Positions 24,428 to 45,120 of a stretch of 46,043 bases of DNA are shown here, piece after piece. The notes below the pieces were generated by a model that saw only the letters and a list, made by a program, of their open reading frames with translations, was not told where the DNA came from and made no database searches. Every line of letters begins with the position of its first letter. The first letter of the stretch is position 1. Source of the DNA: Alphaproteobacteria bacterium (GTDB taxonomy: Bacteria > Pseudomonadota > Alphaproteobacteria > SMXS01); NCBI GenBank assembly GCA_028284945.1, contig JANQQJ010000022.1, positions 1 to 46,043 on the forward strand. Direction: 5' to 3'. Made by a program: the position numbers and the translations under genes.

Positions 24428-24976
24428 TCACTCTGCTGCCACCGGATGATTTTCGGATTCAGCCTCAACCATTTTGGCCTTCGCCCGGGCCCTGGCCCGA
24501 ATGCGCAGACGTTTGAAGATCGATACCCGGTCTACCAATAGTTTACCCGCCAGGTGGTCCATTTCGTGCTGCAGGCAGACGGCGTGCATCCCGCTCAAAT
24601 TCCGCTCGAACGCGGTGCCATGCTGATCTTGTGCGCGAACGCGCACTCTGGTTGCGCGAAACACATTGCCGACCAAGCCCGGAACAGAGACACATCGTTC
24701 TTCAACGATACCCCAGGCCCCTTTCGACATGATCTGCGGATTGACATAAATCTGCGGGTCCGACTGGTCCTCTGACAGGTCCAGCACCAGCACCTCTTGC
24801 TGGTGGTCGATCTGTGGCGCAGAGAAGCCGATTGATTTGGTGGCATAAAGCGTTTCGAGCAACCGGTCGGTCAAGCCGGTCAGCGCACTATCGAACTCTG
24901 TAACAGGCGCTGAGCGCAGCCGAAGCCGTGGGTCGGGAAACTCCAAAATGCCCAAGCTGTCAGCCGGCTCGGTCAT
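24428..24976 (-). CDS. def: divergent peptide deformylase, overlapping pucC
   Basis: 182 residues. Peptide deformylases remove the formyl group from N-terminal fMet. All three motifs are present but altered: motif I is GFSAPQID (canonical G-x-G-x-AAPQ-x-G), motif II is ERCVS (canonical EGCLS), motif III is QHEMDHLAGKL. The metal ligands C95, H137 and H141 and the catalytic E138 remain, so activity is likely. The C-terminus is unusually basic (about 155-167, RLRIRARARAKAK). The ATG overlaps the pucC stop as ATGA (24973-24976), so it is probably translated from the puc message. Likely an accessory paralog rather than the housekeeping enzyme, which is normally paired with fmt. Convergent with tamB. 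Confidence 0.85.
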   Translation of the reverse strand: MTEPADSLGILEFPDPRLRLRSAPVTEFDSALTGLTDRLLETLYATKSIGFSAPQIDHQQEVLVLDLSEDQSDPQIYVNPQIMSKGAWGIVEERCVSVPGLVGNVFRATRVRVRAQDQHGTAFERNLSGMHAVCLQHEMDHLAGKLLVDRVSIFKRLRIRARARAKAKMVEAESENHPVAAE

Positions 24977-26415
24977 TGTGCCAATCCGGTCGATTGCGTT
25001 TTTGTGCTCTGTGCACGCTCGGCCGATGAGCGGCGGACCAGCGGGACAAGGGCTACGATCGTTGCCAGCAATAGCGCGATTTCAAGGGCGTAGACGGTGA
25101 TGTAGCCGCTGGCGGCGCGGTCGAAGCCGAAGAGCGTGTCGGTCGCGCCGAGAGCCGCATTGACCAAGTCCCGGATCGTGCCGCTCAGGGCCATGGCAAT
25201 CCCGGCGGCTGTAGCCTGGACCGCGCCCCAGGCGCCCAAGGCCAGACCGATCTGATCCTTCGGCGCCAGCCGCATGGTTGCGGTCAACGTGCCGTGCCAG
25301 AAGACTGCAGCGCCAAAGCCAATCAGAAAGTTGCCGACCAGAAACGCCGCTGAGAGCTGAAGCGGCGCGGCCAGAATAACCAGTGCGAAGGCCGGTACGC
25401 CAATGATGGCGCCGTTCTGCGTCATCCGGTACGGGTCGCCGCCGCGGGCCCCCAGTGTGTGCGAGGCATAGGCAAACCCCATCAAGCCGCCCAATGCGAA
25501 TAGCGCGGTTAGTTTCGTGGTGGCGGAGACCGTCCAGTTCAGCACCTGCCCACCGAAAGGCTCGAGCAAGACATCGGCCATCCCGAACGCCATGGTCCCC
25601 AGCCCGACGATAACAAGACGGCGGACGGCCTGTCCGCCCTGACAGAACTGCGCCCAGGACTCAGCAAATGTCGGGTCGACGGCCGGCAGGGGTGCACCGC
25701 GCCGTGGATGCCGGGTTTCCTGCTTCCACATGGCGATCGCATTGAGAGCTAGGCAGGTGACCGCACAGCCCTGGATCACCTGAACCAGCTTGCCTTGGCT
25801 GAAGTCCGCCAGCAGCGCGCCGAAAATGAGAGCGCTGGCCATCATGCCAATCAGCATCATGACATACATCAGTCCAACGACCCGGGGATGTGATTCCTGT
25901 GGTGTCAGGTCTGTTGCCAGCGCCAGACCCGCGGTCTGAACAATATGGGCGCCGGCGCCAACCAGCAGGAACGCTAGTCCCGCGGAAGACAAGCCCACCC
26001 AGGCTGGAACATCTGCTGATTGTCCGGTACCCGCCAGAACCAGCAAGGCAAAGGGCATGACGGCAAAGCCCCCGAACTGCATCATTGTGCCCTTCCAGAT
26101 GAAGGGAACGCGGCGCCAGCCTAACTCGCAGCGATGCGTGTCAGACTTGTAGCCGATCAGGGCCCGAAACGGCGCAAAAACAAGCGGCAACGCGATCATC
26201 ACCGCAACGACTGCCGCCGGTACGTCCAGTTCGACGATCATTACGCGGTTCAGCGTACCGACCAGCAGAACCAGGGTCATGCCGACGGAAATTTGAAAAA
26301 GAGAAAGCCTTAAAAGACGCCCGAGCGAAAGATCAGGCGTCGCAACATCCGCAAACGGAAGATAGCGCGGCCCGAGAGCCGTCCAGGTTGCGACGAGTCG
26401 TTGCCCGATCCTCAT
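24973..26415 (-). CDS. pucC: PucC/LhaA-family light-harvesting complex assembly protein
   Basis: 480 residues, about 12 transmembrane helices, of the bacteriochlorophyll-delivery branch of the major facilitator superfamily. Recognised from LGRLLRLSLFQISVGM, LNRVMIVELDVPA, the PFRALIGYKSDTH segment and VPFIWKGTMMQFGGF, all typical of PucC/LhaA/BchG-associated proteins. PucC is needed to assemble the peripheral antenna, probably by organising bacteriochlorophyll or the alpha/beta polypeptides at the membrane. Its place downstream of pucB and pucA identifies it as PucC rather than LhaA, which lies beside puf. A weak GGAACC lies before the ATG. The 3' end overlaps the peptide deformylase start. 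Confidence 0.93.
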   Translation of the reverse strand: MRIGQRLVATWTALGPRYLPFADVATPDLSLGRLLRLSLFQISVGMTLVLLVGTLNRVMIVELDVPAAVVAVMIALPLVFAPFRALIGYKSDTHRCELGWRRVPFIWKGTMMQFGGFAVMPFALLVLAGTGQSADVPAWVGLSSAGLAFLLVGAGAHIVQTAGLALATDLTPQESHPRVVGLMYVMMLIGMMASALIFGALLADFSQGKLVQVIQGCAVTCLALNAIAMWKQETRHPRRGAPLPAVDPTFAESWAQFCQGGQAVRRLVIVGLGTMAFGMADVLLEPFGGQVLNWTVSATTKLTALFALGGLMGFAYASHTLGARGGDPYRMTQNGAIIGVPAFALVILAAPLQLSAAFLVGNFLIGFGAAVFWHGTLTATMRLAPKDQIGLALGAWGAVQATAAGIAMALSGTIRDLVNAALGATDTLFGFDRAASGYITVYALEIALLLATIVALVPLVRRSSAERAQSTKTQSTGLAQ

Positions 26416-27768: not shown

Positions 27769-29094
27769 CTAGCGGCGGCCTTCCAGATAATCGTTCAGGA
27801 CTTCATGGAATCGCCGCACCCGGCTCTCCTGACCGGTCAGATGGGCATCGGTATAGCCCTGGGAGGCGAGCCCGCGTTGCTGACCCACAGCGACGCTGAG
27901 ATCTTGAATCAAAAACGATCCCGCCATGTCAGGGATATCGACACCCGACCCGTAATCGATATGCTCGTGCTCGCATTCCTCGAACGGACGTTCACCGACC
28001 AAAGTCATGATTGTGTCCTGGCCATGGACTTTGTTGACCAGCCAAAAGCAATCGAAGGTGCACTTATTTGGGTCCGTGAGGTGAGGTTCTGTCCGGAAGA
28101 CAAACACGCCCTCATGGCCGGCCGTCATTGTCACGTTGGGGAACAAGGTGTGATGGTGCGGGTCGGTCAGTTCGGTATCCGTGAAACCGTCCAGGTGCAG
28201 ATACCCTTTTTCCTTTGCAAGTTTGCGCATTTGTTTCTGCATGGCGATCCGGCCGTCGCGGGCCCGTCCTTCAAAGTCCTTTGGATCCAGATCCCATTTT
28301 TCCAGCATCATGTCCCACGGAGACTCGACGGCGTTGGGAACATCGGCCCGCATGGACGGCTGGCCCATCTCGATCATGCGGTTGTGGCCGTTCGGATACA
28401 TCTCGAAGACCGTATTGGCGTAATCCTCGTCGATATTTGCCCGCAGCTGCGGGTGAACCGACGGCAGGTGATAGGATTCATTGAAATTGTCGGAGGCGAA
28501 TTTCCAGTTGGTATCGACATGAAATGTTCGCCAGAAAACCCGGATCATGTCGCCCATGCCGCGATGGGCGAACAGGGTTGGGATCGGGTCCAGATAATCG
28601 AGCAGCGCTGGCGCATCCGGGTCCATGTTCCACCAGGCAAAACCGCCCCATGTTTCGCAGCGCAGCTCGGACAGTGATAGCTCGCCGACGGGGCACCCTT
28701 TCTCGAAATCATCCGGGTCCTGAGCATATTGCAGCACGCCATCCATGCCCCACTGCCACCCGTGATAGGGACAAGTGAACCCGTTGCCGCTGCCGCTTTC
28801 GTTCCAGACAAGCCGCGTTCCCCGGTGGCGGCAGGTGTTGTAGAAAGCGCGGACCGATCCGTCTTCCTGCCGAATCATGATGACGGATTCATGCCTGAAA
28901 TCATGCATGGTGTAGTCGCCGGGTTCGGGCATTTCAGCCAGCCGCCCACCCAAGTGCCAGATGCGAGTCCACATATGGTCCCACTCGCGCTGCATGAAGT
29001 CGGTCGACGTATAACGGTCGCCGGTAATGGGGTCGCCACGAAGTTGGGCGGCTGTGCCACCATCCATGTAATTCAGGTTCGCTGCAGTGGACAT
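27769..29094 (-). CDS. Rieske aromatic ring-hydroxylating oxygenase, alpha subunit (copy 2)
   Basis: 441 residues. Rieske cluster ligands C88, H90, C108 and H111 (NTCRHRGTRL, then CPYHGWQW); catalytic-iron histidines H209 and H214 in NFNESYHLPSVHP. The N-terminus GDRYTSTDFMQREWDHMW and the C-terminal QESRVRRFHEVLNDYLEGR are shared with copies 1 and 3, showing one local family expansion. It follows the histidine kinase stop by 14 bases, so the two are probably on one transcript. No dedicated ferredoxin or reductase is in the window. Substrate unknown; a terpenoid, steroid or aromatic ring is typical of the family. Confidence 0.92.
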   Translation of the reverse strand: MSTAANLNYMDGGTAAQLRGDPITGDRYTSTDFMQREWDHMWTRIWHLGGRLAEMPEPGDYTMHDFRHESVIMIRQEDGSVRAFYNTCRHRGTRLVWNESGSGNGFTCPYHGWQWGMDGVLQYAQDPDDFEKGCPVGELSLSELRCETWGGFAWWNMDPDAPALLDYLDPIPTLFAHRGMGDMIRVFWRTFHVDTNWKFASDNFNESYHLPSVHPQLRANIDEDYANTVFEMYPNGHNRMIEMGQPSMRADVPNAVESPWDMMLEKWDLDPKDFEGRARDGRIAMQKQMRKLAKEKGYLHLDGFTDTELTDPHHHTLFPNVTMTAGHEGVFVFRTEPHLTDPNKCTFDCFWLVNKVHGQDTIMTLVGERPFEECEHEHIDYGSGVDIPDMAGSFLIQDLSVAVGQQRGLASQGYTDAHLTGQESRVRRFHEVLNDYLEGRR

Positions 29095-31917: not shown

Positions 31918-33231
31918 TCAGGCCGAATTTGCACATCCGTGTCGGATGTACGCGTCAAGGCAGTCATGAAACTGCTGTACCCGGCTTTCCTGCCCTGTGA
32001 GATAGGCACCCGCAAACCCTCGCGATTGGAATCCCAGTTGTTGGCCTGTGGCAACCCGCAGGTCCTGATCGGGGATGTAGCCCAGTGATCCTTCACCGAA
32101 GGTAACGACCGTCTTTTCGACCTCTTCGATAGCGACATCCTCACCCAATTCGTTCGGCACGCGGGCTTTTCCGTCGCCGGGTGCCACCAGCCGCCAATTC
32201 TCATAGATGCACTTGTTAGGGTCGGTCGGGTGCGGTTCGGCGCGTTGCAAGCCGACGACCGTTGCCTGCGCTGTAATCGTCGTTCCGGGAAAAAGGTTAA
32301 AGTGGAATGGGTCTGTCAGCTGCTCATCGAGGAGCTTGGGAAAGTAGGTGTACTTTCTGCCGGGGCCAAGGTTGCGTTTCTGCTGTTGCAGCGCTTCGCG
32401 CGCATCACCGGCATGGCCGTCGAAGTCACGCGGGTTCATGTCCCATTCTTCCAGTTCCGCGGCCAAGGCCGGGTTCACCTGATCGGGTTCATCGTCCCGC
32501 TGCGAGGGCAGGGCGCCTTTCATGCGCATCAAGTTATGGCCGGTGTCGAACAACTCGAACACCGTATTTTTGTAATCGTCGTCGAAGAACTCGCTGAGCT
32601 CCGGATGCGTCGTTGGTAGGTGGTAGGATTCACAGAAATTGTCGTGAATTGATTTCCAGTTACATGGCACCTCGGAGACCAGGTAGGAAATCCGGACCAT
32701 ATGCTCCATCTCGTACCCGTCGAGCAGGGTTTTGACCTCGCCCAGAAAGCCGTCGAGGCTCTCGCAGTCCAGGTCCATATTGTACCAGATGAAACCGCCC
32801 CAAATGTCGCATCGGACCTCAGGCAGGTTCAGCACGCCGCACGGGTTGCCTTGGGGGAAGTCATCTGCATCCTGCACATAGGTTAGTACGCCATCCAAAC
32901 TGAATTGCCAGCCGTGGTACGAGCAGGTGAAAAGGTCGGTCGCTCCTTCTTCGCCATAGACCAGCCGGTTGCCCCGATGGGTGCAGACATTATGAAATGC
33001 GCGGACTGATCCATCTTCCTGCCGCACCATCAGGATGGAATCCCGGCCGAGCTGATGGGTGATGTAGTCGCCGGCTTCCGGAATTTCCGAGAGGCGTCCG
33101 CCAATGTTCCAGACCTTGGCCCAGACATAATCGGCTTCCTGTTGCATAAAATCGGTGGAGATATACCGGTCGCGTGTGATCGCCGCATGCGGTGCCGATG
33201 AAGGGTAGTCTTCGATTCTCTGTGTCGACAT
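31918..33231 (-). CDS. Rieske aromatic ring-hydroxylating oxygenase, alpha subunit (copy 3)
   Basis: 437 residues. Cluster ligands C83, H85, C103 and H106 (NVCTHRGNRL, then CSYHGWQF); catalytic-iron histidines H204 and H209 in NFCESYHLPTTHP. It shares ITRDRYISTDFMQ and the QESRVQQFHDCLDAYI end with copy 2. It lies 19 bases downstream of the NTF2-like gene, which could supply a beta-type subunit, the only one of the three copies with such a neighbour. The final stop UGA is not followed by a family-conserved extension, so it is read as a true stop. Confidence 0.92.
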   Translation of the reverse strand: MSTQRIEDYPSSAPHAAITRDRYISTDFMQQEADYVWAKVWNIGGRLSEIPEAGDYITHQLGRDSILMVRQEDGSVRAFHNVCTHRGNRLVYGEEGATDLFTCSYHGWQFSLDGVLTYVQDADDFPQGNPCGVLNLPEVRCDIWGGFIWYNMDLDCESLDGFLGEVKTLLDGYEMEHMVRISYLVSEVPCNWKSIHDNFCESYHLPTTHPELSEFFDDDYKNTVFELFDTGHNLMRMKGALPSQRDDEPDQVNPALAAELEEWDMNPRDFDGHAGDAREALQQQKRNLGPGRKYTYFPKLLDEQLTDPFHFNLFPGTTITAQATVVGLQRAEPHPTDPNKCIYENWRLVAPGDGKARVPNELGEDVAIEEVEKTVVTFGEGSLGYIPDQDLRVATGQQLGFQSRGFAGAYLTGQESRVQQFHDCLDAYIRHGCANSA

Positions 33232-36732: not shown

Positions 36733-37953
36733 CTATCTCGGTTGCCGGTGGCTTTCCGTATAGGGAACGATCAACATCTTGCCGGTGATGGAGACCATCT
36801 GGTTTTCGTTCTCTGACAAGGTCGCACGCAACCGGAGCAGCATGTCGCCACCCAGGGTTTGCGACCAGAACCAGTCGGCTATTTCATTGCTTGAAGGATC
36901 GGACCCGTTCCGCCCGGGTTGGGCCGTCGCCGCTTCTGAGTAATAGGCTTTGAAATCATCGCAGGCCAGACGCAGTTGCGTTGGCAGATCGTTCTCTTCC
37001 GGACCGGCGTCCGGCGTCTCGCCGCGGGCCCACGCGGACAGGTAACGGACCAGGTCTTCGATCTCCAATTGGCTTGTGCCGACCGCCGTACGCCCTCGGC
37101 GATCTACTGCGAGGTCGTACCAGGAGCGCAGCGCCTCGATTTCATCCAGCAGCGCAGAATCCTGATCGCGTTCGGCTTCCGGCGCGGGCAGGTTGATCGG
37201 GCAGACCCAGCCTTCATCGTCTTCGCTTGACGATGCCGGTGCATCGTCAGGGAAATCTTCAAGGATCGGGCCATCCGTCCGCTCAAGCAGATCAAGAGCG
37301 CTGCGCAACACGCCGGTTTGGAAGGCTGTATCCTCAGGCGCGCCAAGCGGGCGGCCCAGCTCGAAGGGCACCCATAGAGCCCTTGGTGGCTTGACCTTCT
37401 CGGTATGCAATCGCACCAGGCTGATCCCGACGGTCGGGATACCAGCCGCTTCAAAATAATGACTGAGCCCGCCAACGGCGCGCGTGCAGAATGGTCAGAC
37501 GGGGGTTAGCAGCACCGCGTCGACGGCATCCTGTTTGAGCAATCCGGCGATCTGATCGGCGGCATCCTTCATAGTCAGCGGATCGGATGCGCCCATGAAC
37601 GAGTAATGGAATTCCGCCACGGAGCCGATCACACCCTCCGCAGCGAGCTCGTTCAACCGGTCCAGAGGGAACACCACATTGGTGTCCTGCTGAAACCCGG
37701 TGCGGTCGAAATTGGTCGATAGATGGCTGATCTGCACTGATCCTGCTGCGTCGCTGGGGATCACCCGGTAATCGGCGGCGCCAAAGCCGAATGGGCGGTC
37801 GCCGGGCCGTTGAAGCCCCGCTGTAGTGACTATGGCGACACGGCGCTCGGACAGCGGCGGGCCCTTTGCCAGCGGCGTATCGGGAAATTCTGGTATCTCC
37901 AGATGCTCCAGATGTTCCCGCAGAGTCTCGTCCATGTCCTCCATGCGTGCCAT
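36733..37953 (-). CDS. PrdB/GrdB-like selenoprotein (glycine/proline reductase selenoprotein B family)
   Basis: 406 residues when the in-frame UGA at 37497-37495 is read as selenocysteine (Sec153). Upstream and downstream halves are in one frame, and both match the family. Before the UGA: VAIVTTAGLQ, NVVFPLDRLNELAAEGVIG and DAVLLTPV. After it: PFCTRAVGGLSHYFEAAGIP, then PTVGISLVRLHTEKVKPPRA and LWVPFELGRPLGAP. In D-proline reductase PrdB the same place reads LLTPG-U-x-x-C, so U-P-F-C is the redox centre. The C-terminal half is a lineage-specific, acidic extension. It lies 14 bases after the UGSC gene and is the last gene of the operon. Substrate unknown; no pyruvoyl proprotein (PrdA/GrdE) is present. 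Confidence 0.88.
37470..37480 (-). promoter_or_regulatory. candidate bacterial SECIS of the PrdB-like gene
   Basis: CGCC-GTT-GGCG forms a 4-base-pair stem with a GUU triloop, extendable by two pairs past a G-G mismatch. The loop begins 19 bases after the UGA, in the usual distance range for bacterial SECIS elements, and has G as its first loop base. The same GUU triloop is found after the UGSC and selD UGA codons. Confidence 0.6.
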
Positions 37954-37967
37954 GCGTTCGCCCGTTC

Positions 37968-38486
37968 CTACTTTGTTAGCGCGTCGAGAATGGACTGTAC
38001 CGCGTCATCGGCCTTTTGACGCATTTCGTCGTCCGTTGCGTCCTGAATCGGATGATCGACGAAGACGGCCTTGGCCGTTTTCATGCCAAGCGCTGTTGCT
38101 TGCACATCGGCGGCGTCGACAAACTCTTCAGAGGCGACGGAAACGGAGGGGATGCCCTGGATTTCGAACCATACAGTGTCGTGCAAACTGCACGTCGTGC
38201 ATGAGCCTCAATCAGCCAGCGCCTCCACGACGAAATCGCATTCGTCCTTGATTTGGAGGCGCAGATCGTCCGGGCAGGGCTTGGTGAAGGTCGGTTTGGT
38301 ATAGCGTCTGATCTCAACGCCAGGCAGCTTGGTCTGCAGCTGCTCATCAAGCCTGTCGAGGAAGACGTCGCCGCGCGGCTTACGGATGTCTAGCAGGCCG
38401 ACGATGCCGGAGACCTCGCCGCTGCGCGGCGTCAATTGCCGCTCCACGGGTACCCGCTCATCCGTCGGGTCCAGAATTGTTGTCAT
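37968..38486 (-). CDS. UGSC-family selenoprotein
   Basis: 172 residues when the UGA at 38210-38208 is read as selenocysteine (Sec93). The N-terminal half ends FVVEALAD, then U-G-S-C-T-T-C, then SLHDTVWFEIQGIPSVSV and ASEEFVDAADVQATALGM. U-G-S-C is the naming motif of this family; homologs with CGSC exist. C96 should form a selenenylsulfide with Sec93, and C99 is an additional thiol. GGAGAG before the ATG is strong. It sits between the thioredoxin-fusion gene (28 bases upstream) and the PrdB-like gene (14 bases downstream). Function of the family is not established; a thiol/selenol redox role is inferred. Confidence 0.9.
38180..38194 (-). promoter_or_regulatory. candidate bacterial SECIS of the UGSC gene
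   Basis: CGTGCA-GTT-TGCACG is a perfect 6-base-pair stem with a GUU triloop, the loop starting 20 bases after the UGA. An alternative TGCAC-GAC-GTGCA hairpin overlaps it. Position and loop agree with the candidates in the other two selenoprotein genes. Confidence 0.65.
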
Positions 38487-38514
38487 AGGACTCTCCTATT
38501 CATTCGGCGCAAGC

Positions 38515-40107
38515 TTAACCGTCTTCGATCTTTCTGGAAACAGGCATCGAGCCGATCTCGCCGCTGGCCCAGCCGTGAAACGCGCCGGAGAATTTGCCGG
38601 CGTCCGATCCGGCCACGACAATATGGACGAAATCCTCACTGGCAAATTTCGGCGCCATGCGGTCCAGCTTCTCTGCAGCCATGGTGTCCGCGACCTCCTG
38701 CTTGAGCCCGACTCCGGAATTTTCATCGGCGATCAGCTCCCGCAAAGGCCGGGCGGTGACCGCTTGGATCTGGCGCCGCAGATCCGCCTTGGAATAGTTG
38801 CCCCGGCTCAGCGTATCGACGTGCTCTGGACACACTACCAGCAACGTGTCGATGCCCACCCGGTGGGCCTTTGGGTGAAACACGCTTTCCAGAGACATCG
38901 CCATGGAGCCTGCGATCTGGCTGGCCTCGCGCGAATCCTGGTCCACGATCAATGTCGGGCCGCTGGTCATGGCAAAGACGGTGAGTACTGAATCCTCGGG
39001 CTCGAACCCCCGCTCCACGTGTAACGGGTCCCAATTGCTGCGCTCCTCCCATTCGGGAAAGCACATGGTGAACTTCATCGGATTGCCGAGGGTCGATCGC
39101 TCGGTGCCGCCGGGTTCAGCACCACCGACATTGCGGACGATCAGCCGCAGGGCCCTGCCCATGGTTGCATTGGCGCGGTTGCCCTGACCCAGCGCGCCCA
39201 GCTTCATATTCATATCCAGCTTGTGGCGGATCGGCCCGTTGATCACCATCACCGGGGCGGCCCCCATCGTGGTGGCCATCACCCCATGGATATTGAATTC
39301 GTCTGTGCAGATCGCCTCGATTCCGGCGATCAGCACCGGCATATATTCAGGTTTACAGCCGGCCATAACCGCATTGATGGCGATCTTTTCTACCGTTACG
39401 TCGCCCATATTGGGCGGCATCTGGGCGACGATGTCCTGCGCGTCGCGTTTGGTGCCACTGAGCATCCGGATCACCCGCTCCGGCGTGGGCGGGACGACCG
39501 GCAGGCCATCGGTAAAACCCTGGTCGAACATGAACTCGAACTCGTCGTCCGCAGGGGCAATGTCGATGGAGCGGGCCCGCAGGGGGCTGTTCGAGGCCTC
39601 GGCCCGCAGCCGGTCGGCGATCACCGGGTCGACGGAGAGGGAGCCACAGCCCGGCCGCCATTCGGGTAGCGACGGCCAGTCGACAACGGCAGGGGCGCTG
39701 CCGGTCACTTTGCTAATTTCCGCATCCAGTGCCTGCCACTCATCGCGGACAAAGCCGATCACCTCGCCGATCATCTCGCCTTTGGAATTGGCCCAGTAGA
39801 GCGTGGGCACCGTATCGATGTCGTATTCAAAGGCGACCTTGAGCGCCGAGTCGTCGAGGATCGGCCCGGCAAGGTTGTGCACCTCAGCCAGTTTTTCATT
39901 GCCCTCGATGGTTTGACCCGCGACGAAGAAATCCACCGTGTCTCCATAAGCTTTGAAGAGCGCATCGATCACCGGCATCGCCACATTACAGGTCGGGCAA
40001 TCTTCCTTGACGAAAGCGATCAGCGCATGGCGGCCACTGGGAAAGCGATGTTCGTTGCCGGTTGGATCGGCGAGCGTGAAAGCGGGTAGGGTTCGGTTGT
40101 CGGTCAT
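38515..40107 (-). CDS. thioredoxin-like domain fused to a large uncharacterised domain
   Basis: 530 residues. Residues 1-130 are a thioredoxin/peroxiredoxin-like domain: ALIAFVKEDCPTCNVAMPV with C37-x-x-C40 at the helix start, and the cis-Pro region DTVPTLYW. Residues 150-530 form a domain I recognise as conserved but cannot name: RPGCGSLSVD, GFTDGLPVVPPTPERV, VTVEKIAINAVMAGCKPEYM, FNIHGVMATTMGAAPVMVIN and GRALRLIVRNVGG. First gene of the operon with the two selenoproteins, so the CPTC pair could re-reduce them. No signal peptide. A weak Shine-Dalgarno (GGAAC) precedes the ATG. Confidence 0.82.
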   Translation of the reverse strand: MTDNRTLPAFTLADPTGNEHRFPSGRHALIAFVKEDCPTCNVAMPVIDALFKAYGDTVDFFVAGQTIEGNEKLAEVHNLAGPILDDSALKVAFEYDIDTVPTLYWANSKGEMIGEVIGFVRDEWQALDAEISKVTGSAPAVVDWPSLPEWRPGCGSLSVDPVIADRLRAEASNSPLRARSIDIAPADDEFEFMFDQGFTDGLPVVPPTPERVIRMLSGTKRDAQDIVAQMPPNMGDVTVEKIAINAVMAGCKPEYMPVLIAGIEAICTDEFNIHGVMATTMGAAPVMVINGPIRHKLDMNMKLGALGQGNRANATMGRALRLIVRNVGGAEPGGTERSTLGNPMKFTMCFPEWEERSNWDPLHVERGFEPEDSVLTVFAMTSGPTLIVDQDSREASQIAGSMAMSLESVFHPKAHRVGIDTLLVVCPEHVDTLSRGNYSKADLRRQIQAVTARPLRELIADENSGVGLKQEVADTMAAEKLDRMAPKFASEDFVHIVVAGSDAGKFSGAFHGWASGEIGSMPVSRKIEDG

Positions 40108-40258: not shown

Positions 40259-40352
40259 TGGCGGAGACGGATGGGAATCGAACCCACCACACATATCGCT
40301 ATGTGTCACCGGCTTTGAAGGCCGTGGAAGCCACCAGACTCCATTCGTCTCC
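40259..40352 (-). tRNA. selC: tRNA-Sec (anticodon UCA)
   Basis: 94 bases including an encoded CCA. The acceptor GGAGACG pairs with CGTCTCC. The anticodon arm CGGC-CTTCAAA-GCCG places TCA in the loop, so it reads UGA. A long extra arm of seven pairs (ACACATA with TATGTGT) is diagnostic for selenocysteine tRNA, as are the lengthened D arm and the T arm GTGGG-TTCGATT-CCCAT. The eighth acceptor pair appears as A-C. It sits between the selenoprotein operon and selD, and is transcribed in the same direction as the operon. Confidence 0.95.
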
Positions 40353-40477: not shown

Positions 40478-41542
40478 ATGACGGATCGGGTGGATGTCCG
40501 CCTGACCCAGTTTGCCAAATCGGCTGGTTGAGCCGGCAAGCTAGGGCCAGAGGACCTGTCGCAAGTTTTGCGGCCGCTGAAATCGATGTTTCCGCAAGCG
40601 GACTTCCCGGATGTGCTGCGAGGCTTGAGCGCACCCGACGATGCCGCTGTGGTCAAACTCGATGACAAACAGGCGCTGGTCCTGACCGCTGATTTCTTCG
40701 CGCCCATCGTCGATGACCCGGTTGAATTCGGCGCGATTGCGGCCACCAACGCGCTGTCTGACATCTATGCCATGGGCGCGCGGCCTATTCTGGCAATCAA
40801 TCTGGCCGGGTTCCCGAAGGATATGGACCCGCAAATCCTGTCTGACATTCTGCGCGGTGGGGCCGACAAGGTGCTGGAGGCCGGGGCGGTCGTCGCGGGC
40901 GGCCACACGACCATTGATGAAGAACCGAAATATGGGCTTGCGGTCATCGGGCTCGTCGATCTGGACAAAATCTATCGTAATGAGGGCGCGCAGGCGGGCG
41001 ACCAGTTGCTGTTAACCAAACCGCTGGGGACCGGTGTGATCGCGACGGCGTTGAAGCGGGGCAAGGCGTCAGAGCCCTCCATCCGCGACGCCATCGCCAG
41101 CATGACGCGGTTGAGCAAGGTCGCTGTTGAGGTCTTGAAGGAGGCAGGTGGTGATGCAGTTCACGCTGTGACCGACATCACCGGCTTCTCGCTCGCCGGA
41201 CATGGCCATGAGATGGCGGCGCTGTCCGGCACGGCGCTCAACCTTCGCCTGGCTGACCTGCCGGTGCTGGAAGGCACTGAGGACTTGCTGGAACAGGGCA
41301 TCGGCTCAGGCGGCATGGACCGGAACCGCGACTATTACACCCAGTGGGTCAGCACCAAGGCCAATGCTGAATCGCCACGCCACCGGCTGATCTATGATCC
41401 GCAAACCTCCGGCGGGTTGCTGATCGCGGTCGGGCCGGAAGCGTTGGATGAGATATTGGCTGCCTTTGATGCGGCTGGCGAACCGGTCTGGCACATCGGC
41501 GAGGTTACTGAGGGTCCCGGCGGCTCGATAACGGTCGACTAG
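40478..41542 (+). CDS. selD: selenophosphate synthase, itself a selenoprotein (Sec18)
   Basis: 354 residues, starting at the ATG at 40478 (AGGAG upstream) and reading through an in-frame UGA at 40529-40531. The start is MTDRVDVRLTQFAKSAG-U-AGKLGP. Sec18 falls at the catalytic Cys17 of E. coli SelD, and K21 at Lys20. Downstream motifs are those of the PurM-like fold: DDAAVVKL, NALSDIYAMGARPI, GGHTTIDEEP, VTDITGFSLAGHGHEM and QTSGGLLIAV. It makes selenophosphate from selenide and ATP for SelA. A gene call beginning at TTG 40568 would remove the active site. Divergent from tRNA-Sec. Confidence 0.94.
40560..40572 (+). promoter_or_regulatory. candidate bacterial SECIS of selD
   Basis: CGCAA-GTT-TTGCG is a perfect 5-base-pair stem with a GUU triloop, the loop beginning 34 bases after the UGA, near the upper limit of the usual spacing. 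A nearer, weaker hairpin (AGGGCC-AGA-GGACCT, 40543-40557, one mismatch) is an alternative. Confidence 0.5.
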
Positions 41543-41579
41543 AAACGATTAGGAATCAGGCTGTGGATCATGGGCGGCG

Positions 41580-41912
41580 TTAGCGGCTGTCGTTGTCCCC
41601 TGCTGAACCGCCGTCACCATCGTCGTCGTTGCCAGCGCCACCCGCACCGCCACTCCCATAAATCAGGCCACCCTTGCCACCATGACCACTGTCACTGCCG
41701 TCGCCTCCAGCCCCGCCGCTGCCGTAGATCAGACCACCCTGGCCGCCGGCACCACTGTCGCCACCTTTGCCACCGTGACCGCCGGTGCCTTCCGATTCAT
41801 CGGTACTATCGGCGGACTTCGCCGTACTGGTGGCAGCATCGTCAGCTATTGCCGGTACGGCGACGACTGCGCCAATTATAAGTGTCGCCAAACCGAGAAA
41901 TTTCCGTTTCAT
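41580..41912 (-). CDS. secreted glycine-rich repeat protein
   Basis: 110 residues. A clear signal peptide (MKRKFLGLATLIIGAVVAVP, then AIA cleaved before DDAATS) is followed by a Ser/Asp/Thr stretch and a Gly-rich region. Two copies of a GHGGKGG-containing unit each lead to LIYGSGGAGG. The end is acidic (NDDDGDGGSAGDNDSR). It is probably exported and flexible; no enzyme motif is present. It lies opposite in direction between selD and selA. The Shine-Dalgarno AGGAG can pair with CTCCT just before the ATG (AGGAG-CGA-CTCCT), which may restrict translation. I do not recognise a named family. Confidence 0.7.
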   Translation of the reverse strand: MKRKFLGLATLIIGAVVAVPAIADDAATSTAKSADSTDESEGTGGHGGKGGDSGAGGQGGLIYGSGGAGGDGSDSGHGGKGGLIYGSGGAGGAGNDDDGDGGSAGDNDSR

Positions 41913-41992: not shown

Positions 41993-43384
41993 ATGGATAA
42001 GAAACTCTTCAGGCAAATCCCTCAGGTTGGCGAGCTTGCGGCATCGCCGGCTTTGTCGCCGCTGCGTGATGGGTGGTCGCAGACTGAGATCGTTGGCGCG
42101 CTTCGAGCGCTGCTGGATAGTGTGCGTGCTGACCTGGGCAGTGGTGGGGCGCTGCCTGACTTTGCCTCCGACGGCTTTGTTGCTGACGTCGAAGCAGAGT
42201 TGCAGGCGAAAAAGCGGCTCAACCTACGGCGGGTCATTAACGGCACCGGGATCATCATCCATACCAATCTGGGCCGTGCGCCGTTGGCGCCGCAGGCCAT
42301 CGAAGCCATGCAGGACGTCGCGCAAGGCTATGCCAATATCGAATATGACCTTGAGGCCGGGAGGCGCGGCTCCCGTTACGACCATATTCGCGACCTTCTC
42401 TGCGAGCTGACCGGTGCGGAAGATGCGGTCGTGGTTAACAATTGCGCGGCAGCCGTGACGATTGCCATGGCGACTTTTGCCCGCGACCGGGAGGTTGTTG
42501 TCTCGCGTGGCGAACTGGTCGAAATCGGCGGGTCATTCCGGGTGCCCGATGTGATTTCCCAGAACGGCGCGCGGCTGCGTGAAGTCGGCACCACCAACAA
42601 GACGCATCTTGCCGATTACGAGCGAGCGATTGGCGGGGAAACGGCGGTGCTGCTGCGCACCCATACCAGCAATTACCGGCTGGTCGGGTTTACGGCCAAA
42701 CCGTCTTTGAACGAACTCGCCAATCTGGCCCACGCCAACGATCTCATTCTGGTCGAAGACTTGGGCAGCGGCACGCTTGTTGATCTGGCAGCTCATGGCA
42801 TCGGTGATGAACCGACCGTGTCGCACAGCATCCGGTCCGGCGTCGATTTGGTGACCTTCTCCGGTGACAAGTTGTTGGGCGGGCCCCAATGCGGCGTCCT
42901 GGTCGGCAAGGCCGACTTGATCGCCCAGGTCAGAAAGAACCCGTTGCTGCGGGCGATGCGGAGCGACAAGCTCTCACTGGCCGCGCTAGAGGCCACATTG
43001 CGGCTCTATCGCCCACCGCATGATCCACTTAACGACGTACCCGTGCTCCGCATGCTGACGGCATCCGCGGAGGATTTGGCCGAAAACGCAGGTGCGCTGG
43101 TTGCCGATCTTGGACAGGTTCCGGGCGTGTCTGCCCAAACCCTTCCGATTCCGTCAGAGGCAGGCGGTGGATCGCTGCCCGGCGTTCAACTGGACTCCAC
43201 GGGGATCGCGCTCAGCGTCGGCGACCTGACTGGCAAAGCGCTCATTGCGCGCCTGCGGGCCAACGAGCCTGCCATTATTGGCCGTATTGTTGACGATCAG
43301 GCGATCCTCGATGTGCGGACGCTGACGCCGGGCGATGTGGATGACATTGCCGCCGCGCTGATGGCGATCTCTGAAAGCGCATAG
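41993..43384 (+). CDS. selA: L-seryl-tRNA(Sec) selenium transferase
   Basis: 463 residues, a standard length. The PLP-dependent enzyme converts seryl-tRNA(Sec) to selenocysteyl-tRNA(Sec) using selenophosphate. Motifs: RRVINGTGIIIHTNLGRAPL, the AVVVNNCAAAVTIAM loop, VEDLGSGTLVDL, and the PLP lysine K293 in TFSGDKLLGGPQCG. The C-terminus IIGRIVDDQAILDVRTLTPG is typical. No good Shine-Dalgarno precedes the ATG; a TATAGT sequence at 41980-41985 is very close to it. Followed after 5 bases by selB. Confidence 0.96.
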   Translation: MDKKLFRQIPQVGELAASPALSPLRDGWSQTEIVGALRALLDSVRADLGSGGALPDFASDGFVADVEAELQAKKRLNLRRVINGTGIIIHTNLGRAPLAPQAIEAMQDVAQGYANIEYDLEAGRRGSRYDHIRDLLCELTGAEDAVVVNNCAAAVTIAMATFARDREVVVSRGELVEIGGSFRVPDVISQNGARLREVGTTNKTHLADYERAIGGETAVLLRTHTSNYRLVGFTAKPSLNELANLAHANDLILVEDLGSGTLVDLAAHGIGDEPTVSHSIRSGVDLVTFSGDKLLGGPQCGVLVGKADLIAQVRKNPLLRAMRSDKLSLAALEATLRLYRPPHDPLNDVPVLRMLTASAEDLAENAGALVADLGQVPGVSAQTLPIPSEAGGGSLPGVQLDSTGIALSVGDLTGKALIARLRANEPAIIGRIVDDQAILDVRTLTPGDVDDIAAALMAISESA

Positions 43385-43389
43385 ACCCG

Positions 43390-45120
43390 GTGCAGGACCA
43401 TCTTTCAGTTGGCGTGGTGGGCCATGTCGATCATGGCAAGACCACCTTGGTCAAGTCTTTGACCGGGACAGAGACGGACCGGCTTGCCGAAGAGCGCGAG
43501 CGGGGCCTGAGCATCGTGTTGGGCTTTGCTTTTCGTGAAACCGACAAGGGTGTGATCGATTTCATCGACGCGCCGGGGCATGCGGATTTTGTCCGCACCA
43601 TGATTTCCGGCGCGACGGGCATTGACGCCGCGCTGGTGGTGGTTGACGTCAATGAAGGGATCATGCCGCAAACCTGTGAGCATCTGCGGATTGTTTCGCT
43701 TTTGGGGATTTCACGGTTGGTCGTGGCGTTGACGAAGATCGATCTGGCGACGGATGGAGTCGTGGCGTCGGCAGAGGCGGCGCTAAGGACCTATTTGTCG
43801 AGCGTTGGCTTCAGTGATGTTGTCTTTGTGCCGGTCTGTGCGCTTTCGGGTCAGGGGGTCGACCGGCTGGTCGCTGCACTCGAACAGCTATTCCAGAAAG
43901 AAGCCGAACAGGCCCATGGCGATAAATTCTATTTGCCTTTTGACCGGGTCTTCACGGTGCGCGGCTTTGGCACCGTTGTAACGGGCACGTTGCGCGCGGG
44001 AACCATGAAGATTGGAGACGAGGGCCAGATTATCGGCACGAACGCGGCTGCCCGGGTGCGCCGGTTGGAGGTCCACGGTACCGAGGTGGATGTGGCAAAG
44101 CCCGGCCAACGGGTCGCGGCCAATCTGCGGGTCGATGGAGGCGTGACGCTGGAACGCGGTCAGGCGGTTGCGGCGCCCGGCTGGATCGAGCCGTCTGAAT
44201 GGTGGTCCGCGAGCCTCAATATGGCCGGCGACGTTGAGGTCAGCTTGAAGAATGGTAAGCCGGTTCGTCTGTTACATGGTACGCGCGAGGTGATCGCGAC
44301 GCTGCGGCTGCTGGACCGGGACATCGTCGCGCCGGGCGAACAGGCTAACGTCCAGTTTCATCTAAAACAGCCAGAGGGTGCCTGGGACCAGGAGCACTTC
44401 ATTGTCCGAACCATCTCACCTGTGGAAACCGTTGGCGGGGGCCGGTTTCTCGATACGGCCGCAACACGCATCAAACGTTACGACGAAAATGCAATCCGCA
44501 GGCTGGCATCAGGCGAGGCCGAGGATGACGGCGTCGACCCATCAGAAAGCATGATTGAGGCCGTGCAAGCCTATCACGCATCGCACCCCATGCGCGTCGG
44601 GATGCCGAGGCTTGAACTGGCGGACAAACTTGGTTTGGAGCGTCAGACCATGACCGATTTACTGGCGCGGTTGCAAGCTGCTGGACGGCTAATTGATCAT
44701 GGTGCGCAGATCAGTCTTGCAGACTTTGATCCGCTTGAATCGTTGGACGACCGGGAACGGGCTCGGGTCGAGGCGCTCGAAAGCCTCATTCGCGAAACCC
44801 CGTTGATGCCGCCGACGCTCGATGAGGTCGTCGCGCTGGACCGCCAAAACAAGGCAAGTGCCGAACTACTGATTGAAACGGGCAAGGTCGTCCCGCTGCA
44901 CGACTTTAAGCGCAAGAACCTGTTTCTGTTCCATGCCACGGACATTGAAGACGCCGTTGCGTCTTTGCGTCAGGCGTGGCCGCCGCCTGCCCGGTTTCGT
45001 CTGGGCGAGGCGCGCGAGCATCTCGGCGTGACCCGAAAGTTTCTCCAGCCGCTGCTTGAATATCTCGACAAGCAGAAGATCACGCAGCGGCGGGAGGATT
45101 TTCGGGAAATGCTATCCTAG
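43390..45120 (+). CDS. selB: selenocysteine-specific translation elongation factor
   Basis: 576 residues from GTG at 43390. GTPase motifs: G1 GHVDHGKT (11-18), G2 RGLSIVLGF, G3 DAPGH, G4 TKID. Translation-factor beta-barrels follow (FTVRGFGTVVTGTLRAG). The C-terminal third carries the winged-helix modules that bind the SECIS, including RFRLGEAREHLGVTRKFLQP and LLEYLDKQKITQRR. It delivers Sec-tRNA to UGA codons with an adjacent SECIS. The 5-base gap from selA implies one transcript. Confidence 0.95.
   Translation: MQDHLSVGVVGHVDHGKTTLVKSLTGTETDRLAEERERGLSIVLGFAFRETDKGVIDFIDAPGHADFVRTMISGATGIDAALVVVDVNEGIMPQTCEHLRIVSLLGISRLVVALTKIDLATDGVVASAEAALRTYLSSVGFSDVVFVPVCALSGQGVDRLVAALEQLFQKEAEQAHGDKFYLPFDRVFTVRGFGTVVTGTLRAGTMKIGDEGQIIGTNAAARVRRLEVHGTEVDVAKPGQRVAANLRVDGGVTLERGQAVAAPGWIEPSEWWSASLNMAGDVEVSLKNGKPVRLLHGTREVIATLRLLDRDIVAPGEQANVQFHLKQPEGAWDQEHFIVRTISPVETVGGGRFLDTAATRIKRYDENAIRRLASGEAEDDGVDPSESMIEAVQAYHASHPMRVGMPRLELADKLGLERQTMTDLLARLQAAGRLIDHGAQISLADFDPLESLDDRERARVEALESLIRETPLMPPTLDEVVALDRQNKASAELLIETGKVVPLHDFKRKNLFLFHATDIEDAVASLRQAWPPPARFRLGEAREHLGVTRKFLQPLLEYLDKQKITQRREDFREMLS

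Follow-up and report, generated by a model that had tools for sequence, protein, structure and literature searches.

A thioredoxin-linked UGSC selenoprotein system beside a PrdB-like gene in an alphaproteobacterial selenocysteine island

Does a tight cluster of two selenoprotein genes and a thioredoxin-fusion gene encode one selenium-dependent reductase, or do its members belong to different enzymes? The question is raised by contig JANQQJ010000022.1 of assembly GCA_028284945.1 (Alphaproteobacteria bacterium, lineage SMXS01), whose 46,043 nucleotides are called the window here. Three genes on its minus strand encode a thioredoxin-like domain fused to an unnamed domain (Trx-UNK), a selenocysteine (Sec) protein of the UGSC family, and a Sec-containing relative of PrdB and GrdB. 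A preliminary description of this DNA had proposed that all three form a single new redox system; its gene positions, UGA codons and motifs at 36733-40107 (minus strand) are exactly as found here. We lean, by a modest degree, towards a reading that makes Trx-UNK and UGSC a thioredoxin-driven, apparently pyruvoyl-free Sec reductase and the PrdB-like protein a separate enzyme housed in the same Sec island. The genes, separated by gaps of 28 bases (Trx-UNK/UGSC) and 14 bases (UGSC/PrdB-like), are:

38515..40107, minus strand: Trx-UNK gene, 530 amino acids, first gene of the operon
37968..38486, minus strand: UGSC gene, 172 amino acids with Sec93, second gene of the operon
36733..37953, minus strand: PrdB/GrdB-like gene, 406 amino acids with Sec153, third gene of the operon

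Trx-UNK and UGSC are a real, conserved two-gene system, because their adjacency is very wide and the genes are also found fused. Of 61 class loci with UGSC, 59 have UNK beside it. A scan of the collection with UNK gave at least 584 related loci, and the counts on named loci that follow refer to the best 80 of these, which span proteobacteria, Chloroflexi, Acidobacteria, Actinomycetota, Myxococcota and others. UGSC lies within 600 bases of UNK on the same strand in 72 of the 80, and a Sec-encoding UGSC gene occurs somewhere in the locus in 75; thioredoxin is fused to UNK in 79, and a sel gene is also present in 16. UGSC and UNK form a single polypeptide with a stop-free linker in 13 loci, and one annotated coding sequence of Variovorax boronicumulans comprises CGSC plus UNK. 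Cysteine (Cys) in place of the UGA, for which the preliminary description had proposed a search, was found both in UGSC and in PrdB proteins. Cys forms of the UGSC system are carried on named plasmids of Arthrobacter, Roseovarius, Variovorax, Natrinema, Haloterrigena and Halorientalis, with UNK annotated as a hypothetical protein, and their neighbours are often TTT, TRAP or ABC transport proteins, CoA-transferases and LysR regulators.

Two variants of the arrangement were also seen. In the UGSC-UNK fusions of Sporomusa and Vibrio europaeus the UGSC motif is replaced by DMGTS, with loss of the redox residues; these genes (L186, 7329-9053; L281, 5362-7047) have aconitase X and DUF126 genes close by. 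In Henriciella and a Rhodobacteraceae metagenome-assembled genome (L196, L199 and L205) a long oxidoreductase-SelD fusion apparently comes next after UGSC, giving the order selA-selB-tRNASec-TrxUNK-UGSC-(Ndh)SelD.

Both UGA codons of the operon are decoded as selenocysteine, as the preliminary description had supposed. Chance readthrough is set aside because the organism has tRNA-Sec, a Sec-containing SelD, SelA and SelB, because the TGA codons are conserved, and because each is followed by a hairpin of the Sec insertion sequence (SECIS) kind. The decoding genes lie just beyond the operon, selD, selA and selB running divergently from it on the far side of tRNA-Sec, so that the features concerned are:

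38208..38210, minus strand: UGA for Sec93 (UGSC motif), kept in 72 of 72 named homologues
38181..38193, minus strand: UGSC SECIS hairpin GUGCA-GUU-UGCAC, with pairing and synonymous-site constraint in 100 sequences
37495..37497, minus strand: UGA for Sec153 (UPFC motif), with one in-frame TGA in most PrdB-like copies of the class
37467..37483, minus strand: PrdB-like SECIS-like hairpin, with six nested pairs in 88-100% of 33 Sec sequences
40263..40352, minus strand: tRNA-Sec gene (Rfam RF01852, 78.7 bits; also ARAGORN), just upstream of the operon
40478..41542, plus strand: selD (TIGR00476, 369.7 bits), with an in-frame TGA for Sec18 (U18)
41993..43384, plus strand: selA (TIGR00474, 574.8 bits)
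43390..45120, plus strand: selB (TIGR00475, 302.2 bits, cut-off 242.25)

The island thus holds three Sec codons altogether (UGSC, PrdB-like and SelD); the tRNA-Sec gene and the selenoprotein nature of SelD were points absent from the preliminary description. Exactly one in-frame TGA is present in 70 of 71 UGSC copies of the class, the remaining copy being stop-free, and all 72 named UGSC genes in the alignment carry it within the motif DUGSC. Across 100 UGSC sequences the hairpin follows the UGA at fixed spacing with a GTN loop, and its third codon positions are constrained: A18 is paired with T30 in 9 of 9 cases, the middle T of the loop is invariant, and position 27 is G in all sequences except one. 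The hairpin of the 33 Sec-PrdB copies is similar in kind in its spacing after the UGA. Its arms are CAGAC/GTCTG in one subclade and GCGCGC/GCGCGC-like in the other, where the encoded amino acids differ; one pair of the window copy is G-G, and the hairpin is apparently missing, as judged by eye, from the two Cys-PrdB copies shown. Folding of the SECIS regions as single sequences was not significant (z -0.91 for the UGSC hairpin), so the SECIS case rests on comparison.

The second gene product passes two curated cut-offs of the UGSC family by a wide margin (NF041046, 170.5 bits for a cut-off of 125; PF24696, 168.3 bits for a cut-off of 25), and its motif region reads ADUGSCTTCSLHD with the TGA as residue 93. 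Genomes carry up to 8 UGSC paralogues. In the AF2 model (mean pLDDT 93.3) strands and helices alternate in a beta/alpha fold, and Sec sits where a helix begins; the structures nearest to the model are generic (flavodoxins, lumazine synthases, a designed protein and 8s7v_H, Z 11.1). The Trx-like fold suggested for UGSC in 2008 differs from this confidently predicted Rossmann/flavodoxin-like arrangement. In hhalign profile comparisons Sec falls on Sec whether UGSC is set against the Sec portion of the PrdB-like sequences (77%, E 2e-5) or against four genuine PrdB proteins (80%, E 1.5e-5). The best of 80 column-shuffled controls reached 1.9% and E 0.026, with a score of 20.1 against 39.5-39.8 for the real comparisons, and two reversals gave no similarity. 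UGSC therefore appears, from these profiles, to be a distant relative of the PrdB Sec domain; no solved PrdB or GrdB structure was found by sequence search.

The clostridial D-proline and glycine reductases need a pyruvoyl-type partner, which the preliminary description had reported missing here. That observation extends well beyond the window: PF09338, the PrdA/GrdE family, has no match in 26 genomes, the present one included, and as a positive control it matches two PrdA-bearing plasmid records. UNK was considered as a PrdA relative and rejected, since it has no profile similarity to PrdA (GrdE itself was not compared).

Trx-UNK consists of a TlpA/ResA-like thioredoxin domain (residues ~1-138) and the UNK domain (residues ~190-530), and its AF2 model has a mean pLDDT of 94.1. 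The thioredoxin domain has both the fold and the CxxC motif of the TlpA/ResA type, here in the form:

39988..39999, minus strand: CPTC redox motif, residues 37-40 of Trx-UNK

Among 78 homologues C37 and T39 are invariant and C40 is conserved in at least 90%. The domain superposes on a DsbE-like protein (VIA Z 17.7, rmsd 1.9, 133 residues aligned), and its likeness extends to ResA/StoA/TlpA and AhpC-like folds. UNK gave zero matches in Pfam, NCBIfam or a PDB sequence profile search, and the Foldseek and VIA lists for the full-length model are filled by matches to the thioredoxin domain.

The preliminary description had suggested that the thioredoxin domain supplies electrons, and the copies that lack the fusion agree with this. 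A thioredoxin reductase (TrxR)-like gene lies on the same strand, 79-190 bases away, in 10 of 43 unfused loci and in 0 of 94 Trx-fused loci (Fisher p 4e-6, uncorrected for relatedness). Pyridine nucleotide-disulphide oxidoreductase domains also rank first among the same-strand neighbours of unfused copies. The gene order is trxB-trxA-UNK-UGSC in the Arthrobacter Cys form and UNK-UGSC-trxB in that of Roseovarius; trxB is close to UNK-UGSC in Variovorax, and a TrxR-like gene adjoins UNK in Haloterrigena. Since TrxR or TrxA genes adjoin copies without the fused domain, the fused thioredoxin is most likely the electron donor to UGSC.

From this material we infer a division of labour, an electron path and a type of reaction. 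UGSC would be a cut-down relative of the PrdB/GrdB Sec domain that supplies the selenolate, and UNK would be its dedicated partner, probably forming the substrate site. Sec93 would attack the substrate held by UNK, and Cys96 or Cys99 would then resolve the selenium bond to leave a selenenyl-sulfide with Sec93, which the fused CPTC domain could re-reduce after each turnover; NADPH and thioredoxin reductase would be the upstream source of electrons. If glycine, proline and fluoroacetate reductases are taken as models, the reaction would most likely be the reductive cleavage of an activated C-X bond, carried out without a PrdA/GrdE-type pyruvoyl subunit. The neighbours of the Cys forms allow a guess at the class of substrate, but no gene is a constant neighbour of the Trx-fused type. 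More tentatively still, and with less than even confidence, UNK-UGSC may represent a widespread new class of thioredoxin-driven, pyruvoyl-free selenoreductases (Sec or Cys) in aerobic bacteria and archaea, which would cleave C-X bonds of specific organic acids and occur in up to 8 versions per genome with different substrates.

The third gene product carries the motif VUPFCTRAVGG, with the TGA as residue 153, and its UPFC provides the UxxC required at this position of the PrdB family. It matches TIGR04483 (PrdB) with E 4.6e-30 and 104.8 bits, below the 300-bit cut-off; GRDB (PF07355) with 41.9 bits, above the gathering cut-off of 22; and TIGR01918 (glycine/betaine/sarcosine/D-proline selenoprotein B) with 58.2 bits, below the cut-off of 65.45. 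The PrdB-like set aligns with true PrdB over 211 columns (hhalign 100%), the window protein being a long form with a C-terminal extension of ~180 residues. Metabolic neighbours of PrdB genes are diverse, with no dominant family. In G293 and G294 of the genus g225, a Rieske oxygenase-like gene lies downstream of the PrdB-like gene (L271, 1062-3160; L273, 2722-5418). A TGA-containing PrdB-like gene is also present in G264 (L147, G264:C98), a genome rated 100% complete that has no SelB above cut-off, for which a missing contig or contamination is a possible cause.

Whether this protein works with the other two can be judged from its distribution. Were all three genes a single new reductase, with the thioredoxin domain feeding UGSC and the PrdB-like protein alike, the tight operon of the window would be explained, as would its repetition in another genus of the same small order (G290), which has the full block selB-selA-selD / tRNA-Sec / Trx-UNK / UGSC / PrdB; moreover, 22 of the 28 UGSC genomes also have PrdB-like genes, which occur in 36 of 289 genomes of the class. 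Against this, the window and G290 are the only places where the two families adjoin. They are never neighbours in some 200 other loci, with none shared among 60 other UGSC loci, 60 PrdB loci and the 80 named UNK loci. UGSC and PrdB stand on separate contigs in G293 and G294, a different gene following UGSC in G293 so that PrdB is clearly not adjacent there, and G264 has PrdB without UGSC. Six UGSC genomes lack PrdB, and among 41 SelB-positive genomes, of which 21 have both families, 6 UGSC alone, 5 PrdB alone and 9 neither, co-occurrence is weak (odds ratio 6.3, p 0.015). In other genomes, a number of long-form PrdB genes and a number of UGSC genes are likewise found within a few kilobases of selB; because both families independently come near selB elsewhere, a shared Sec island accounts for their adjacency here, and the most economical explanation is a clustering of Sec-encoding genes near the genes that decode Sec. 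We therefore regard the single three-gene reductase as improbable. The PrdB-like gene stands outside the conserved system and joined the operon only in the window's bacterial family; it would be an enzyme in its own right, with chemistry of the same type, collected at a compact Sec island. The three-family system of the preliminary description accordingly holds for Trx-UNK with UGSC, whose neighbourhood is widely conserved, and fails for the PrdB-like gene, since the complete block recurs only in G290.

Other functions for the two-gene system have to be weighed as well. Trx-UNK/UGSC might be an antioxidant or a peroxide or disulfide reductase in repair, its Sec attacking O-O or S-S/S-O bonds, as would suit the largely thiol oxidoreductase-like selenoprotein families of marine microbes (PMC2398784), the resemblance of the thioredoxin domain to ResA/StoA/TlpA and AhpC-like folds, the diverse neighbours of the fused type and a peroxidase activity of GrdB, given as a title in the reference list of PMC3091704. 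We consider this unlikely: the UGSC Sec domain is related to that of PrdB, and both the up to 8 paralogues per genome and the position of Cys forms beside transporters, CoA-transferases and TrxR fit substrate-specific reductases better. It is less likely again that an external thioredoxin is the donor to UGSC and the fused domain serves elsewhere, for example in folding or metal handling. Unfused paralogues do exist and Arthrobacter has a separate trxA, but CPTC conservation extends across 78 homologues, and no locus of the sample combines the fusion with a TrxR neighbour. A thioredoxin-driven, pyruvoyl-free reductase made of Trx-UNK and UGSC remains our preferred reading, and several points weigh against it. 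The metabolic neighbours of Trx-UNK/UGSC are diverse, with no dominant family, a pattern also compatible with a general function in redox chemistry or repair. The DMGTS fusions suggest that part of the UNK family does without Sec or Cys chemistry. The likeness of UGSC to PrdB covers one domain only, at a probability below 90%. No TrxR lies near 33 of the 43 unfused loci, and the fused loci are interrelated, so the p-value for TrxR is not independent. UNK, finally, is probably the substrate site, yet it is a domain without a known relative.

The surroundings of the island tell something of its host. Two Rieske ring-hydroxylating oxygenase alpha subunits (27769-29094 and 31918-33231) and PucC (24973-26415) point to an aerobic, perhaps phototrophic, bacterium. 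The 450-base gap between selD and selA contains an open reading frame of 103 amino acids (41570-41881), and the matching gap in G290 is ~70 bases long. Formate dehydrogenase-like genes of this genome give matches without an in-frame stop. With a G+C content of 0.57-0.62 from 36000 onward, the window shows no clear signal of horizontal transfer, and promoter and terminator scans of the region scored near those of shuffles.

UGSC and PrdB selenoproteins, together with a UGSC/Unknown_1 fusion, were already known from the Global Ocean Sampling data of Zhang and Gladyshev in 2008 (PMC2398784). UGSC then ranked with the commonest selenoprotein families in aquatic metagenomes, and a 2026 review (PMC13188914) continues to list it with no function. 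The assembled Trx-UNK-UGSC system, its link to TrxR and the kinship of UGSC with PrdB were not found described in the literature searched, which was available in part and outside which key papers lie. With its ties to the widespread UNK domain, to thioredoxin and TrxR and to the PrdB/GrdB superfamily, UGSC becomes open to biochemical test as an enzyme of two or three proteins with a likely electron donor, and the Cys forms of Arthrobacter, Roseovarius, Variovorax and haloarchaea sidestep the need for Sec incorporation. Should C-X cleavage prove correct, aerobes would commonly possess a chemistry known from anaerobes that ferment amino acids.

Among systems already described, the UGSC family of 2008 (PMC2398784) is identical to that of the window, and Unknown_1 of the 2008 fusion is probably UNK; the two accounts differ in fold, Trx-like being suggested there and Rossmann/flavodoxin-like modelled here. 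The SAO and Tso operons of Haft and colleagues, as summarised in the review PMC13188914, are likewise multi-selenoprotein operons of unassigned function; the window proteins matched no other selenoprotein model of NCBIfam 20.0 (the presence of Tso and SAO models there was not checked). In D-proline reductase the pyruvoyl group resides on PrdA; attack on the alpha carbon is attributed to the Sec of PrdB, and a PrdB Cys then releases the product (PMC3091704), a selenoether scheme that provides a precedent for the mechanism proposed here. The third gene is homologous along PrdB, with Sec153 against Sec152 in C. sticklandii (PMC3091704), and the UGSC Sec motif aligns to that of PrdB. Unlike that enzyme, the window has no detected PrdA, a third gene far below the PrdB cut-off with a UPFC motif and a C-terminal extension, and a short single-domain UGSC partnered by UNK, in a setting whose genes suggest an aerobe. 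GrdB/GrdE and FarB/FarE share the Sec nucleophile, and glycine reductase also shares thioredoxin electrons, along the path NADPH-TrxR-Trx-GrdA-GrdB (PMC3091704); it differs in GrdE, since PF09338 has no match here (GrdA and GrdC were not searched). FarB and FarE, relatives of GrdB and GrdE with a proposed role in fluoroacetate defluorination, are a further precedent: FarE is reportedly not processed to a pyruvoyl form (PMC10838667), a hint that such a scheme does not depend on pyruvoyl processing.

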